From: Pseudomonas azotoformans
GTDB lineage: Bacteria; Pseudomonadota; Gammaproteobacteria; Pseudomonadales; Pseudomonadaceae
Assembly (NCBI RefSeq): GCF_001579805.1
Contig: NZ_CP014546.1
Coordinates: 2,976,001-3,040,000, forward strand
Direction of reading: 5' to 3'
DNA: 64,000 bases
Both the position numbers and the translations under genes were made by a program. Below the pieces are notes generated by a model. That model had not been told where the DNA came from, did no database searches, and saw only the letters and a list, made by a program, of their open reading frames with translations. This document shows, one piece after another, positions 44,884 through 52,244 of this stretch (within the stretch, counting starts at the first letter, position 1; each line of letters begins with the position of its first letter).

Positions 44884-45186
44884 ATGACGCAAGAACCTAG
44901 CACCCTCTATGCCAAGCTGCTTGGTGAAACCGCCGAAATATCCTGGAAGGAGCTTGAGCCGTTCTTCGCAAAGGGTGCCCTATTGTGGGTCGACGCAGGC
45001 CTGGATTTGATCGAAGCCGCCGAGGGAATGGCCGAGGACAACCGCGACAAAGTCGCTGCCTGGCTGGCCTCTGGTAGCCTGGGCGAAGTGTCTGCGACGC
45101 GGGCGCTGGACCTGGTTGAGCGCGATCCGAGTCTGTGGGCGGTGGTGGTTTCACCGTGGATTCTGATCCAGGAAAGGGCGGCGTAA
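44884..45186 (+). CDS. DUF2288 family protein
   Basis: A 100-aa acidic cytoplasmic protein: LYAKLLGETAEISWKELEPFFAKGALLWVDAGLDLIEAAEGMAEDNRDKVAAWLASGSLGEVS then VVVSPWILIQE. It matches the DUF2288 family in length and in its WxxLxxFFAxGxxxxV core and closing VSPWVLIQ motif. No function is established. It is transcribed away from braC and is followed by ~300 bases of intergenic DNA with a REPIN but no gene. Confidence 0.85.
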   Translation: MTQEPSTLYAKLLGETAEISWKELEPFFAKGALLWVDAGLDLIEAAEGMAEDNRDKVAAWLASGSLGEVSATRALDLVERDPSLWAVVVSPWILIQERAA

Positions 45187-45494: not shown

Positions 45495-47672
45495 CTAGGC
45501 GGTCTTGCCGGTGTGGTTATTCAACGAAATAACCTTGGTCTTACCGATGCGGTGACGGTAAATCTCACGCAAGTACTTGATCGCCTTCTTCACGCAATCC
45601 CGCGACAGGCGAATGTCATTGATCGATACGAACTTCTCTTTGTCGTTGATCAGCTCGCGGTACTTCTTCTCATACATCGGCTTGATCGCGTACCAGTTGG
45701 TATCGAGGATCTTCGCCGGATTTTCGAACTCGTTGAGCAGCTCGTCGATATGGGCTTCGTCGAAGTCCTCGTGGATGATGAAATCCAGGATCGAGTTGTC
45801 CAGCGTGTCATCGAACCGGTACGGGTTGCGCGCAAAGCAGCGCTTGATGAAGGCTACGATCAGCGTGAGGAAATCATCCGACAGGCACGGGCTTTTCGCA
45901 ATCAAGGTGGTCAGCGACAAGTTGGCCGAAGCACCGATCACCAGGGCATAGCGCTTGAGGGTGGTGTTGGGGAACAGGCTGTTGAGGTGGGTCTTGAGCC
46001 GGTTCAGGTCCATGTAGGACAGCTTGTAGTCCTTGGGCAACGAGACGATGGACACCACCGACGAGCAGTTCTTGAAGAAGTGCAGGTCATGCAACGCGGC
46101 CGCGTCGTAGCCTGAATTCTTGTACTGCTCCAGCGACGCCTTGTAGCGCTTGGATTCGATCGGCAGCAGGCTGATGCCTTCGATGGCTTGGGTGACTTTG
46201 TTGAAGTGCGGCAGGTCGATGGAGCGAAAGAACAGGTCATCGATGTTCAGGCGTTGCGGCTCTTTCTCGAATACCTTGAATTTGTCGCTCGACGGCGCCG
46301 GGGTTTCCGGGACGACGGACTCGGCGTAGGCAATCGCCACCGGGCCGGCCAGGCTCATGAACAGGTCGTTGGCATCCAGGCGGATGGTTTCGCCGATGTC
46401 GATCCCGGCGCGCCGGAAGTAGTTCTGGTCGTAGTCGGTGGTCACGGCCTGGGCGGTGAGGATGTTGAAAATCTGCTGGGAAATGTACTGGTTGGCGTGT
46501 TTTTCCATGGCATTGACGTCAATGTTCTGGATGTTGCCGTCATCGCTTTCTTCGGCATAACGCATGATGTCGTTGGAGATCAGCATCATCGCGTTCCACG
46601 GCCGGATGCGCCCCTTCACGCTGGCTTCGCTGCTGTCTTCGTTGGCGAAGTTGTACGAGAAATCCCATTCTTCCGACAGGTATTTGCACAGCAGGCGCCC
46701 GGCGTTGATGTGCAGCGCCTCGGACATTTCGCTACGGTGGTCGGAAATGTTCGGCAGCACGCAAATGCCGCTGGTGAAGATCGGCTCGAACACAAAGGCA
46801 TGGCCGCTTTTGCTGTCGTGCTCGTCGGCGGGCTTGGTGTCGAACGTCTTGTTCATGTACGAGTGTTGCTGGGCCAGGCCGAATTCCGAGGCCATGCCCG
46901 AGCCGGTGCCGCCGCCGGCGCTGAAGATCGAGAAGTACAGGCGCGACTGGTTGGCCTTGATGCCGCACGAGTCGATCAGGTACGAGTGGATCATCTTCCA
47001 GTCAGGGCTGGAAAAACGCTGGGTGTCTTTATTGAGGATGATCTTGGCCAGGTACTGGCCGAGGATCGGCGCGTTACCTGCACCACCGGCATGGACTTCA
47101 GACAGGTCCATGATTTTCATCTTGCTGTAGTCGCGCAAAAAGCCGCTTTTTTCGCCCTTGCGCGAGAAGCGGATACGCCCGGCGATGTCCTTGTCCAGGT
47201 CGCCAAGCATTACCAGCGGTTCCACCAGGAACACCGGTTTGCTGGCCTTGCCGCTGCCCAGGCGCAGGTTGTTGCGGATCCACTGGGCCGGGCTGTAACC
47301 CTTGTCCTGTGACTTGTCTTCGTTGCTGAATTCGTTCAAGTAGAACTTGCGCGCGTTGTACACCAGTTCCGCCACGTCGAGCGCGATGTTCGAACCACAG
47401 CGGCCCAGGCCGATCAGGCACACCGAGGGGAATTCCTGCTCGTTGCGCGGATCGTTGTCGCCTTCCAGATGGGGGGCGCGCGGGAACACCATGTCGCGCA
47501 GGCCGTCGAGGTTGTCGAGGATGCGGTCGGTATTGGTTTCGGTGAAATACAGGTATTGCTGGGTGGCCAGCGGGCGGGCGGTGCTCAATGACTTTGAACC
47601 TGAGGGAGTGTCCGCAGGAGCTGGGAGCAACACGTCGGATACCACGGTGGCAGAGTTATTTTTAGAAGTCAT
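45495..47672 (-). CDS. Orphan tubulin/FtsZ-superfamily GTPase-like protein
   Basis: A protein of 725 aa from MTSKNNSATV (a TTG 13 codons upstream is also open but lacks a ribosome site). An N-terminal ~70 residues look flexible. VCLIGLGRCGSNIALDVAELVYNARKFYL near residue 85 is the first nucleotide loop. FSAGGGTGSGMASEFGLAQ near residue 253 is the tubulin/FtsZ signature GGGTGSG that holds the GTP phosphates. A large alpha/beta C-terminal region (~residues 300-725) has no motif I recognise and ends in a cationic, alpha-helical tail (CVKKAIKYLREIYRHRIGKTKV). It resembles Tubulin-like (Tubulin_2) proteins. It has no visible partner gene: DUF2288 and a c-di-GMP protein flank it, with REP DNA downstream. 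Confidence 0.78.
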   Translation of the reverse strand: MTSKNNSATVVSDVLLPAPADTPSGSKSLSTARPLATQQYLYFTETNTDRILDNLDGLRDMVFPRAPHLEGDNDPRNEQEFPSVCLIGLGRCGSNIALDVAELVYNARKFYLNEFSNEDKSQDKGYSPAQWIRNNLRLGSGKASKPVFLVEPLVMLGDLDKDIAGRIRFSRKGEKSGFLRDYSKMKIMDLSEVHAGGAGNAPILGQYLAKIILNKDTQRFSSPDWKMIHSYLIDSCGIKANQSRLYFSIFSAGGGTGSGMASEFGLAQQHSYMNKTFDTKPADEHDSKSGHAFVFEPIFTSGICVLPNISDHRSEMSEALHINAGRLLCKYLSEEWDFSYNFANEDSSEASVKGRIRPWNAMMLISNDIMRYAEESDDGNIQNIDVNAMEKHANQYISQQIFNILTAQAVTTDYDQNYFRRAGIDIGETIRLDANDLFMSLAGPVAIAYAESVVPETPAPSSDKFKVFEKEPQRLNIDDLFFRSIDLPHFNKVTQAIEGISLLPIESKRYKASLEQYKNSGYDAAALHDLHFFKNCSSVVSIVSLPKDYKLSYMDLNRLKTHLNSLFPNTTLKRYALVIGASANLSLTTLIAKSPCLSDDFLTLIVAFIKRCFARNPYRFDDTLDNSILDFIIHEDFDEAHIDELLNEFENPAKILDTNWYAIKPMYEKKYRELINDKEKFVSINDIRLSRDCVKKAIKYLREIYRHRIGKTKVISLNNHTGKTA

Positions 47673-47875
47673 TGTGCGCCATGTGCCTGGGCGGATGGCT
47701 GAAAGTATCAAAGGGCCATCACGGAATGGGAGTTCGCGACTTTACAGTGCGTCCTTGTCCTGGGCGAGTGGGCTAAACCCTAGTGTTTTCGGGGAAAACC
47801 TGGCCGGACTCTGATGAATCGGCCGTTCGTCGGCGTTCTTTAGGCAAATGATGGCGAAATGCCAAAGATTCGGCG

Positions 47876-50155
47876 TCAGCGAATTGGCCTGACGATGGAC
47901 GTGGAGCCTCCACGGCTTGGCGAGGGCTCTTTCGGCGTACGGCTGTCCGTGGTGCTCACCCCGCTTGGTGAGTGGAGCGGATTGCGCATGTTGATGCCTT
48001 GCATTACACCGATGATGTCACTGGCTGGCACCGCAGGACTCAGCAGGTAACCCTGGACGAAATCACAGCCATGTTGGTGCAGCAGCTCGAACTGGGCCTG
48101 GGTTTCCACGCCTTCGGTCACCACTTGCAGGTGTAGGGTGTGGGCCATGCCGATCACCGCCTGGACGATCTCGATATCGGCGGTGGATTTGGGAATATCC
48201 TGGATAAACGAGCGGTCGATCTTCAGGGTGTTGAGGGGCAAGCGCTTGAGGTAAGCGAGGGATGAGTAGCCGGTGCCAAAGTCATCGATGGCCAGTGACA
48301 CACCCAGCGCGCGGATTTGCCGCAGCAACGCCAAAGTACTGCTGATGTTACCCATCAGGGCGTTTTCGGTGACTTCCAGTTCCAGGCGGTTGGCGCCGAT
48401 CCCGCTGAAGCGCAACGCGTCTTCGATTTCATCCGCCAGCTCATCGCGGGCCAGGTTCAGGGCCGAGCAGTTCACCGCCATGGTCAGGTCGGTATAACCC
48501 CGTTCCGACAGCAGGCTCAGGTCATGACAGGCTTGGCGCAGTACCCAGTGGTCCAGTTCGGCAATCAGGCCGTTGCTTTCGGCGATGCCGATAAAGCGGT
48601 CCGGAGCCAGTAGACCGTGCTGTGGGTGTTGCCAGCGTACCAAGGCTTCCAGTCGCGTGACCTTGCCCAGTTTCATGTCGAAGATCGGTTGATAGAACAG
48701 CACCAGTTGGTTACGGGTGCGCAGGGCGCCGCGCAGTTCCTCTTCCAGTTGCAGTTCAAGGAACGCGCGGGTTTTTAGGTTGGAGCTGAAGAAGTTCAGG
48801 CTGTTGCGCCCGGCATCCTTGGACTGATACAGCGCCAGGTCGGCGGTTTTCAACAGCTCTTCGCACGTCAGGCCGTCATCGGGAAACAGGCTGATACCGA
48901 TGCTGGTGGTCATCACCATGCGCCGGCCGGCCAGTTCGATGGGTTCTTTCATCTGTTGCATGATGCGTTGGGCCAGGTGCCGGGCTTCGTCGCGGTGGTG
49001 GATGCTGATCAAGATGCAGAACTCATCGCCGCCAAACCGCGCCACCACATCGGCGTGGCTGCGTACCGAGCCCTTGATGTGCCCGGCCAGCACGGTGAGC
49101 AACTGGTCGCCGGCGTCATGCCCGAGGCTGTCGTTGATGCGTTTGAAGTGGTCGATATCAAGGAAGATCACCGCCATCATGCCGTGGGAGGCGGTTTTTT
49201 CGGCGAGCTTTTCCGCGAAGATCTGGTTGAAGCCTCTTCGGTTGAGCAGGCTGGTCAAGGCGTCGTAGTGGGCCACCTGTTGCAGCGAGGCGCGGGCCTG
49301 ATCGAGTTCGCTGAGCAGCGCATTGACCCGACGTAGATCGCGTTCCTTATGTTGCAGTTTCTTGTCAGCCAGGGCCGCGCTGATGCTGCTGCCGATCACC
49401 AGCAGGGTGATGACGGCGACCGACAAGCCCAGTTGAATCGGATTGTTGTCCAGCGGCAGCGACAAGTCCGCCCCCGTCGGCACCATCAGGCGCATAGCGG
49501 CCATGCCGGTGAAATGCATGCTCAGGATGCCCGCGCCGAGCACCAGACTGGCGGCATATTTAAGCAACTGGTGGAACACCCCGGCACCGTTGCGCAGGTA
49601 ACTCGACAGCAGCAAGGCCGCCAGGCTGGCGCCGATGGCAATGCCGATCGAGGCCATGAACAGTTTTGTTTCGAAATACACCTGTGCCTGGGAACGCATG
49701 GCCGACATGCCGACGTAATGCATCAAGGCGATGCCGATGCCCATCCACACCGACGCCAGCAAATACTGGTGGAAGCGCAGGTGGGGGTGACTCAGGGTTT
49801 GCATGGCGATCAGCGACGCGATCAACGCGATCAGCAAGGACGCGAACGTCATGAGCAGTTCGTAATGGATGGCAATCGGGGCCTGGAAGGCCAGCATGCT
49901 GATGAAATGGGTCGACCAGATCCCGCCCGCCAGGCACCCGGCACCGAGCCAGCGCCAGTGGCGGCGCGCGGTAGGGTCTTCGACATGGCCGACGCGTTCG
50001 GCCATGTCCAGCGTGCCGAAACCCGCCGCGCAGGCGACCAGGTAGGCCAGCAGTACCAAAAAGGGGTTATGACTGCAATTGAGTAATAAGTGCCCGCTCT
50101 CTGGAAGCTCGGTAAAAAAATGCAGACCCAGCCATTCCATAGCATGTCCCGTCAT
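47876..50155 (-). CDS. MHYT-GGDEF-EAL cyclic-di-GMP protein (MucR/NbdA-like)
   Basis: A 759-aa inner-membrane protein. Seven membrane spans (residues ~20-250) contain three MHYT-type motifs (THFISML, MHYVGMSAM and MHFTGMAAM), a proposed sensor for a diatomic gas. GGDEF near residue 375 (VARFGGDEFCILIS) and EAL near residue 502 (LEALVRWQHP) are both canonical, and TSLLNRRGF and DDFGTGYSSLAYL are intact. Both cyclase and phosphodiesterase activity are therefore possible. The same architecture occurs in MucR (alginate control) and NbdA (dispersal) of P. aeruginosa; which of these is its orthologue is not clear. It is upstream of the tubulin-like gene on the same strand but separated by 200 bases. 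Confidence 0.9.
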   Translation of the reverse strand: MTGHAMEWLGLHFFTELPESGHLLLNCSHNPFLVLLAYLVACAAGFGTLDMAERVGHVEDPTARRHWRWLGAGCLAGGIWSTHFISMLAFQAPIAIHYELLMTFASLLIALIASLIAMQTLSHPHLRFHQYLLASVWMGIGIALMHYVGMSAMRSQAQVYFETKLFMASIGIAIGASLAALLLSSYLRNGAGVFHQLLKYAASLVLGAGILSMHFTGMAAMRLMVPTGADLSLPLDNNPIQLGLSVAVITLLVIGSSISAALADKKLQHKERDLRRVNALLSELDQARASLQQVAHYDALTSLLNRRGFNQIFAEKLAEKTASHGMMAVIFLDIDHFKRINDSLGHDAGDQLLTVLAGHIKGSVRSHADVVARFGGDEFCILISIHHRDEARHLAQRIMQQMKEPIELAGRRMVMTTSIGISLFPDDGLTCEELLKTADLALYQSKDAGRNSLNFFSSNLKTRAFLELQLEEELRGALRTRNQLVLFYQPIFDMKLGKVTRLEALVRWQHPQHGLLAPDRFIGIAESNGLIAELDHWVLRQACHDLSLLSERGYTDLTMAVNCSALNLARDELADEIEDALRFSGIGANRLELEVTENALMGNISSTLALLRQIRALGVSLAIDDFGTGYSSLAYLKRLPLNTLKIDRSFIQDIPKSTADIEIVQAVIGMAHTLHLQVVTEGVETQAQFELLHQHGCDFVQGYLLSPAVPASDIIGVMQGINMRNPLHSPSGVSTTDSRTPKEPSPSRGGSTSIVRPIR

Positions 50156-50897: not shown

Positions 50898-52244
50898 ATG
50901 CAGAACTCGACCCAAGCGGCGAATGCCTGGCGCATTCTGTTCCTGCTGTTCCTCGCTAATCTGTTCAATTTCTTTGATCGCACGATTCCGGCGATCATCA
51001 TCGAGCCAATCCGCATGGAATGGCACTTGAGCGACTTCCAGCTCGGCATCATCGGCACCGCCTTCACCATCGTCTACGCCATTGCCGGCCTACCCCTCGG
51101 GCGCCTGGCCGATACCGGCTCGCGCAGCAAACTGATGGGTTGGGGCCTGTTCGCCTGGAGCGGGTTGACGGCGGTCAATGGCATGGTCGGCAGTTTCTGG
51201 ACGTTTCTGCTGGTGCGCATGGGAATCGGCATTGGCGAAGCCAGCTATGCGCCGGCGGCCAACTCGCTGATTGGCGACCTGTTCCCGGCGCACCGTCGCG
51301 CGCGGGCCATGGGCATTTTCATGCTGGGCCTGCCGTTGGGGCTGTTGCTGGCGTTCTTCACCATCGGCTGGATGGTCAAGGCGTTCGACAGCTGGCGCGC
51401 ACCGTTCTTTATCGCGGCGGTACCGGGGATGATCCTGGCGGTGTTCATGTTCTATATCAAGGAGCCCAAGCGCGGCGCCGCCGAAACCGTGCAGGTTTCC
51501 CAGGAGCGCGTCGACCGCCCGATCCGCCGCGTACTGGCGGTGCCGACCTTCCTGTGGCTGGTGCTGGCCGGGCTGTGCTTCAACTTTGCGACCTATGCCT
51601 GCAACTCGTTCCTGGTGCCGATGCTGCAGCGTTATTTCCTGATGCCGTTGCAGGAAGCGGCCGTCGCCACGGGCGTCATCGTCGGGTTGACCGGCCTGGT
51701 AGGCCTGACTTTAGGTGGCTGGGTCGCTGACAAGATCCACCAGCGTGTTGCCAATGGTCGCCTGTTGTTCGCCGCGTTCAGCCTGATCATCTCCACCGTG
51801 ACCACCGCCTGGGCGTTGCACGCCGGGCGTATCGAGATTGGTGTGTTTGTGGCGCTGTTCAGCGTGGGTTGGTTGTTCGCCTATAACTTCTACACCTGCG
51901 TGTACACGGCGATCCAGGACGTGGTCGAACCGCGCCTGCGCGCCACGGCCATGGCGCTGTTTTTTGCCGGGCTGTACTTACTGGGCGGTGGGATGGGGCC
52001 GATCGTGGTGGGTGGGCTCTCCGATCATTTCGCCCATTCGGCGATGTATGCGGCCGGGGCGGAGCAGATGACTGAAGCGTATAAAGCGGTGGGGTTGCAT
52101 GACGCCATGTACCTGATCCCGGTGGCGCTGTTCTTGACCATGCTGTTTTTGTTCCAGGCGTCGCGGTGTTTTGTGCGCGATGCCAAGAAGATGAAGGAGG
52201 GGTTGAGTGCGGTGGAGGTGCCGGGTTCGGCGGTGACAGCTTGA
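50898..52244 (+). CDS. Spinster-type MFS transporter
   Basis: A 448-aa, 12-span major facilitator. LLFLANLFNFFDRTIPAIIIEPIRMEWHLSDFQLGIIGTAFTIVYAIAGLPLGRLADTGSRSKLMGWGLFAWSG includes the DRT and G-x-LADxGSR loop motifs. RMGIGIGEASYAPAANSLIGDLFPAHRRARAMG is the second signature. This matches the spinster-like/Spns group of MFS exporters (substrates range from sphingolipids to aromatic acids). No adjacent pathway genes suggest a substrate. It is followed by a REPIN and a terminator. Confidence 0.87.
   Translation: MQNSTQAANAWRILFLLFLANLFNFFDRTIPAIIIEPIRMEWHLSDFQLGIIGTAFTIVYAIAGLPLGRLADTGSRSKLMGWGLFAWSGLTAVNGMVGSFWTFLLVRMGIGIGEASYAPAANSLIGDLFPAHRRARAMGIFMLGLPLGLLLAFFTIGWMVKAFDSWRAPFFIAAVPGMILAVFMFYIKEPKRGAAETVQVSQERVDRPIRRVLAVPTFLWLVLAGLCFNFATYACNSFLVPMLQRYFLMPLQEAAVATGVIVGLTGLVGLTLGGWVADKIHQRVANGRLLFAAFSLIISTVTTAWALHAGRIEIGVFVALFSVGWLFAYNFYTCVYTAIQDVVEPRLRATAMALFFAGLYLLGGGMGPIVVGGLSDHFAHSAMYAAGAEQMTEAYKAVGLHDAMYLIPVALFLTMLFLFQASRCFVRDAKKMKEGLSAVEVPGSAVTA

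Follow-up and report, generated by a model that had tools for sequence, protein, structure and literature searches.

Makarova and Koonin (2010) described two new families of FtsZ-like proteins, FtsZl1 and FtsZl2 (PMC2875224; our statements about this paper refer to the sections of it that were available). FtsZl1 is the family linked to vWA operons and membrane remodeling. FtsZl2 is typified by the Pseudomonas protein PFL_1302 and is said to retain the core helix H7, and in the available sections the authors report finding no gene association for it. Tubulin_2 proteins are treated separately as FtsZ-like in PMC9871819 (as far as excerpts of it go). We analyzed a tubulin-like gene of Pseudomonas azotoformans (contig NZ_CP014546.1) that lies in a stretch of 64,000 nucleotides, positions 2,976,001 to 3,040,000, which we call the window. 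By the published description, and judging from its sequence, this gene belongs to the second family, FtsZl2; it is most likely the ortholog of PFL_1302, given what the available sections say of that protein and that there is one such protein per genome. Overall, we put the probability at roughly 80% that the gene, a likely PFL_1302 ortholog, encodes a protofilament-forming GTPase that is neither a division ring nor a plasmid or phage filament. The protein family has been in print since 2010; its cyclic di-GMP (c-di-GMP) neighborhood is a new and unproven lead.

The basis for this reading is the fit to the family description (within the available sections), the invariant loops, the FtsZ-like C-terminal domain, and a gene that is single-copy and chromosomal. 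The initial annotation had proposed a chromosomal protein of the tubulin/FtsZ superfamily, distinct from the genome's own FtsZ, with LIGLGRCGSN near residue 85 and FSAGGGTGSGMASEFG near residue 253. Our results support that proposal: the 725-residue open reading frame is present on the minus strand, and the two segments begin at residues 86 and 250 (Table 1). GGGTGSG, which had been expected in close homologs, was present in 140 of 140 selected sequences (the window protein included). The ratio of nonsynonymous to synonymous substitution rates (dN/dS) was 0.07-0.21 against four relatives, which indicates purifying selection. With the T1 and T4 residues that we checked identical in 140/140, and with purifying selection on the gene, these motifs exceed chance. 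Between the starts of the T1 and T3 segments there are 106 residues, versus 50 in the same genome's FtsZ. In an hhalign alignment whose overall match was weak, GAGNAPILGQYLA was paired with GAGANPEVGRQAA of FtsZ. In T7, both acidic residues of the FtsZ motif N-x-D-x-x-D are kept (here, R-x-D-x-x-D), and structural alignments to 6umk and 6unx begin with residue 433 opposite residue 209 of E. coli FtsZ, where the model has low confidence.

The initial annotation had also described a C-terminal region of about 420 residues without a recognizable motif. This does not hold for residues ~433-600, which in our model resemble, by fold comparison, the C-terminal (GTPase-activating) domain of FtsZ, TubZ, and CetZ. 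It does hold for residues ~600-725, which are unexplained, as is the insert of ~100 residues after T1. Since T5, T6, H7, T7, and the C-terminal domain all lie within the 420 residues, that region is not featureless. In the model, strands and helices run from 445 to 706, a mixed alpha/beta C-terminal region as judged from the model. Residues 601-700 are modeled as helices (block means of the predicted local distance difference test, pLDDT, of 52-86) and lie outside the fold-comparison matches of the C-terminal domain.

Table 1. Coordinates of the FtsZl2 gene, its putative loops and regions, and the adjacent genes, in window positions. Fractions are identical residues among the 140 sequences.
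Feature	Position	Strand	Residues or length	Remarks
FtsZl2 gene	45495..47672	(-)	725 aa	ATG at 47672, stop at 45495; single copy
T1 loop GLGRCGSNIA	47382..47411	(-)	88-97	G88, G90, R91, C92, G93, S94, N95 each 140/140
Insert between T1 and T3	47094..47387	(-)	96-193 (~100 residues)	longer than in FtsZ
T3-like segment HAGGAGNAPILGQ	47055..47093	(-)	194-206	
T4 loop GGGTGSG	46896..46916	(-)	253-259	140/140
T5-like segment FEPIFTSG	46767..46790	(-)	295-302	P297, G302 140/140; matched to FtsZ TRPFPFEG by eye
T6-like segment LISNDIMRY	46557..46583	(-)	364-372	S366, N367, D368 140/140; matched to FtsZ IPNEKLL by eye
Core helix H7	46437..46496	(-)	393-412	placed by eye; model helix 386-410, low confidence
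T7 loop RLDANDLF	46359..46382	(-)	431-438	R431, D433, D436 140/140
Tubulin/FtsZ-like C-terminal domain	45873..46376	(-)	433-600	
C-terminal helical extension	45498..45872	(-)	601-725	no known relative found
MHYT-GGDEF-EAL gene	47876..50155	(-)	759 aa	same-strand upstream neighbor; Pfam; candidate functional partner
DUF2288 gene	44884..45186	(+)	100 aa	downstream, convergent; Pfam 103.8 bits; probably unrelated

We infer GTP hydrolysis, filament formation, and surface roles for the insert and the extension. FtsZl2 would most likely be a soluble GTPase whose subunits stack head to tail as protofilaments. As in FtsZ, TubZ, and CetZ, one subunit would hold GTP with its loops T1-T6, and T7 of the next subunit (D433 and D436) would complete the active site. 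Both the insert that follows T1 and the helices at the C terminus probably face the side of the filament, where they would recruit partners or bundle filaments. With the T7 loop and the C-terminal domain placed, assembly-dependent GTP hydrolysis is directly testable via D433 and D436.

The genome (one contig of 6,859,618 bases) has a single match to an FtsZl2 family profile. Its own FtsZ is encoded at G000:C1:2593310 (PF00091, 169.4 bits) and coexists with FtsZl2; Pfam's tubulin models match this FtsZ and, weakly, FtsZl2, and all of their other matches in the genome have E ≥ 0.5. Because FtsZ is present and 69 of the 199 sampled congeners lack the gene, FtsZl2 is not the division ring. We found no relatives in 72,556 plasmid records and 50,697 phage records, and none of the 85 stretches that two peptide patterns picked out of viral contigs is a relative. 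The reading as a segregation filament of a plasmid or phage was rejected, as the gene is chromosomal and has no plasmid or phage match. The initial annotation was right that this is neither the standard FtsZ nor TubZ/PhuZ and that division, plasmid, and phage genes do not adjoin it; the adjacent genes encode the MHYT-GGDEF-EAL and DUF2288 proteins.

Several results weigh against a protofilament-forming GTPase. Both tubulin models of Pfam score the window protein below their cutoffs, PF00091 at 19.1 bits (cutoff 33) and PF13809 (Tubulin_2) at 18.7 bits (cutoff 27). The two models do match 14/14 members of alignment A1, which includes the window protein, at E up to 1. (A division FtsZ would be expected to exceed the PF00091 cutoff and to have an FtsZ-like length, and with 725 residues this protein does neither.) The GTPase domain of the N-terminal half, where a Rossmann-type nucleotide-binding fold of the tubulin kind would be expected, was captured by neither of two AlphaFold models. 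The full-length one, from 48 sequences, has a mean pLDDT of 44, with values below 50 for residues 335-445, which include T7. The other, of residues 78-450 from 140 sequences, reached a pLDDT of 36, and none of its 45 Foldseek matches was under E = 1. The hhalign comparison with this genome's FtsZ alone was weak (probability 1.9, E = 0.026, effective number of sequences 1.8), searches of solved structures by single sequence and by profile gave no match to the window protein, and an arginine takes the place of the T7 asparagine. In separate searches with the window protein, PADLOC gave no match, the best E value was 0.25 in PHROGs, and the best in NCBIfam was 0.043 (13.4 bits versus a cutoff of 96).

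To look at neighbors of FtsZl2, we surveyed 144 loci: 80 from close Pseudomonas (the best 80 of 562), 63 from sampled genomes (one of them a broken copy), and the window. The genus loci were 23 of 129 other matches, hand-picked with divergent ones preferred. From other families (denoted f) we used 13/13 loci of f207, 9/9 of f201, 2/2 of f195, 1/1 of f38, 11/11 of f242, and 14/16 of f197. The GGDEF profile was our own, built from four proteins, and was used at E = 1e-6 in the 144-locus survey and at 1e-3 for the f242 loci; two or three members of each GGDEF architecture were scanned with Pfam. A GGDEF domain lay within 2.2 kb of FtsZl2 in 95 of the 144 loci, on the same strand in 95/95 (87 upstream, 8 downstream). 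Among the close Pseudomonas, 74/80 loci had such a neighbor, and 5 of the 6 that did not, which are from the window's clade, have complete upstream flanks. Another 21 were among the other 64 loci (13/24 of the window's genus and 8/13 of f207). There were none in the loci of f197 (14), f201 (9), f195 (2), or f242 (10 intact, 1 broken).

The adjacent GGDEF proteins have three architectures, each of which is found on either side of FtsZl2 depending on the locus. MHYT-GGDEF-EAL is upstream in the window's clade and downstream in L167 and L168; NMT1-GGDEF is upstream in L196 and L210 and downstream in L201; and Amt-PAS-GGDEF-EAL is upstream in L157, L205, and L208 and downstream in L153, L155, L206, L207, and L209. 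At L150, a PAS-GAF-GGDEF-EAL gene is two genes away. On a tree of 62 rows (L196 and the broken copy, L164, were left out), 20 rows are GGDEF-adjacent, and these states need 8 changes. In 14 of the surveyed genomes, between 0.5 and 1.5% of all genes are GGDEF genes (at 1.05 kb per gene). By eye, we distinguished about 26 gene contexts, and a GGDEF gene adjoins FtsZl2 in 6 of them, versus 0.65 expected at 1.25% per slot (P = 6e-5). If architectures are counted instead of contexts, this becomes 3/26 (P ~ 0.03). The Amt-type loci (L153, L155, L157, and L205-L209) are apparently one locus in which the order of the two genes is swapped between species, flanked by ppx-like and Mnh-antiporter-like genes (named by eye).

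These neighbors are the first hint of a cellular role, as the available sections of the 2010 paper had none, and the best lead so far to the cellular task is that FtsZl2 may serve membrane c-di-GMP enzymes as a scaffold. A filament of FtsZl2 might position or cluster a GGDEF(-EAL) sensor, or the sensor might regulate the filament, and pairs of the two genes would have arisen repeatedly in differing orders. The number of same-strand neighbors, the three architectures on either side, the changes across the tree, and the 6 contexts all favor such a partnership, which we nevertheless consider doubtful. The GGDEF neighbor is missing from the loci of f197, f201, f242, and f195, as well as from 5/13 f207 loci, 11/24 of the selected genus loci, and five loci of the window's own clade whose upstream flanks are complete. 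In f242, the neighbors look like sucD or topA and pfkA. Both the hypothesis and the 2.2-kb limit were picked after the data were seen, and the count by architectures gives P ~ 0.03. Also, because genes of the major facilitator superfamily (MFS) adjoin FtsZl2, on the other strand, in 5 of the ~26 contexts (by eye, from three gene clusters), abundant families can attain such counts. Finally, the gaps between the paired genes are 58-988 bp, unlike a tight operon. About even odds go to the adjacency being neutral, that is, to common ancestry plus local rearrangement around an ancestral locus, where GGDEF genes, being abundant, often end up as neighbors. FtsZl2 would then work by itself or with proteins whose genes lie elsewhere. 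This would agree with the lack of a gene association in the available sections of PMC2875224, with contexts that vary by family and often hold housekeeping genes, with the share of GGDEF genes in genomes, and with the recurrence of MFS genes at the next position; yet three separate gene pairs have swapped their order while keeping the same strand, which is not what simple inheritance would give.

A third possibility, which we rate as unlikely and slightly below the c-di-GMP partnership, is that FtsZl2 is a tubulin-descended nucleotide-binding protein that has lost polymerization and is a monomeric switch or scaffold. The change of the T7 asparagine to arginine, the large insert, and the C-terminal extension would fit, and Makarova and Koonin deemed a non-filament FtsZl1 possible, though less likely (PMC2875224, available sections). 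However, both T7 aspartates are identical in 140/140, and an enzyme that makes no head-to-tail contacts would presumably have no use for them, which argues against this third reading. That the GTPase also supplies the filament in a recurring module of two genes, and organizes or is controlled by a membrane sensor that makes or breaks c-di-GMP, is a tentative proposal; if true, the module would link a tubulin-type cytoskeleton to c-di-GMP signaling.

In the window, the upstream protein has the motifs RFGGDEF and EALVRW, and its gene ends 203 bp before the ATG of FtsZl2. By gene order, it may be the NbdA ortholog. A TTG at 47711 is a possible earlier start that would add 13 residues to FtsZl2. 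Scanning 47400-48200 gave no promoter or terminator on the FtsZl2 strand and one terminator-like site on the opposite strand (0.9 expected). Past the DUF2288 gene, the open reading frames read by eye as a branched-chain amino acid transport cluster. MHYT proteins with the upstream protein's architecture (NbdA and MucR) act in nitric oxide-linked biofilm control in P. aeruginosa (PMC11347149, in part). According to the authors' response in PMC2875224 (among the available sections), the Pirellula staleyi gene of the related family FtsZl1 adjoins a gene for a c-di-GMP phosphodiesterase, a possible parallel to the GGDEF neighbors. In the six of ten f242 loci whose gene settings were read (L213, L215, L217, L218, L221, and L222), FtsZl2 has a housekeeping setting, with a phosphofructokinase-like gene and sucCD (or topA) close by (named by eye).

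FtsZl2 is widespread in the genus (130/199 sampled genomes), though we recognized no experimental work on it by title or abstract in the open-license PubMed Central literature. The name itself is rare there, so "under-described", as the initial annotation put it, is fair. (PMC7327170 was rejected as an FtsZl2 paper; the string there is FtsZL272E.) The family is described as confined to Proteobacteria, and our genome searches covered the window's own phylum. The samples overlap, and those for genus, order, class, and phylum each count the genome that holds the window. Matches were found in 23/390 genomes of the order, 2/369 of the class, and 9/398 of the phylum, and, by family, in 16/120 genomes of f197, 9/101 of f201, 11/12 of f242 (one broken), and 1/3 of f38. 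Clusters at E ≤ 0.001 numbered 652 in one protein search and 666 in another; the best 120 of each were listed, and among their names are Pseudomonas, Rheinheimera, Arsukibacterium, Cellvibrio, Alkalimonas, Catenovulum, and Aestuariibacter. No entry named Pf-5 was among these best 120 of each or the best 80 of 562 loci. The 47 relatives in alignment A2 are 55-94% identical to the window protein, so the family is compact; the L182 copy sits on a long branch of the 62-row tree. Also among the matches listed is P0195, 59% identical to the L137 protein and labeled Flavobacterium sp. W21_SRS_FM6, which may be a mislabeled strain, because the other names listed are Gammaproteobacteria or plain Pseudomonadota.

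A few copies are damaged. The one at L164:8904-11729 (G1280) is fragmented, with stop codons and ~1 kb of foreign sequence that holds a 210-residue open reading frame, GDSL hydrolase-like by eye; 10 of the 12 sampled genomes of its family have an intact-looking copy. An EAL-gene remnant in this broken copy was dropped, as the EAL profile gave no support. In two congeners, the gene is partial (G068:C18:346766-347800, residues 380-724) or split in two pieces (G076:C620), from either real decay or assembly breaks.

Compared with known systems, the window protein shares with FtsZ the loop order T1-T3-T4-T5-T6-H7-T7 and a C-terminal domain. FtsZ has 401 residues, whereas this protein has an insert after T1 and a helical C-terminal extension, no division genes adjoin its gene, and many congeners have no match to it. 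TubZ and PhuZ are encoded on plasmids and phages, unlike this chromosomal gene. The initial annotation had asked whether it belongs to a Makarova-Koonin family or to Tubulin_2; it fits FtsZl2 and not FtsZl1, and falls below the Tubulin_2 cutoff. With FtsZl1 and Tubulin_2 it has in common tubulin-type GTPase loops and a setting away from division genes and plasmids. Those proteins have a coiled coil and helices, while its C-terminal part instead resembles the C-terminal domain of FtsZ, and no vWA, kinase, or GTPase operon partner adjoins it (both neighbors and the MFS gene at 50898 were profile-scanned). The FtsZl1 reading was rejected on the sub-cutoff Tubulin_2 score and the MHYT-GGDEF-EAL and DUF2288 neighbors. 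Like FtsZl2 of the PFL_1302 type, as the available sections describe it, the window protein is from Pseudomonas, keeps T1, T4 (of the form GGGTG(S/T)G), T6, T7, and H7, has a C-terminal region of mixed structure, and coexists with FtsZ; in our model it also fits the ~300-residue alpha/beta C-terminal region without a coiled coil. No feature that we tested sets it apart from FtsZl2, and the recurrent GGDEF neighbor is what our analysis adds to the 2010 account, in the sections available.
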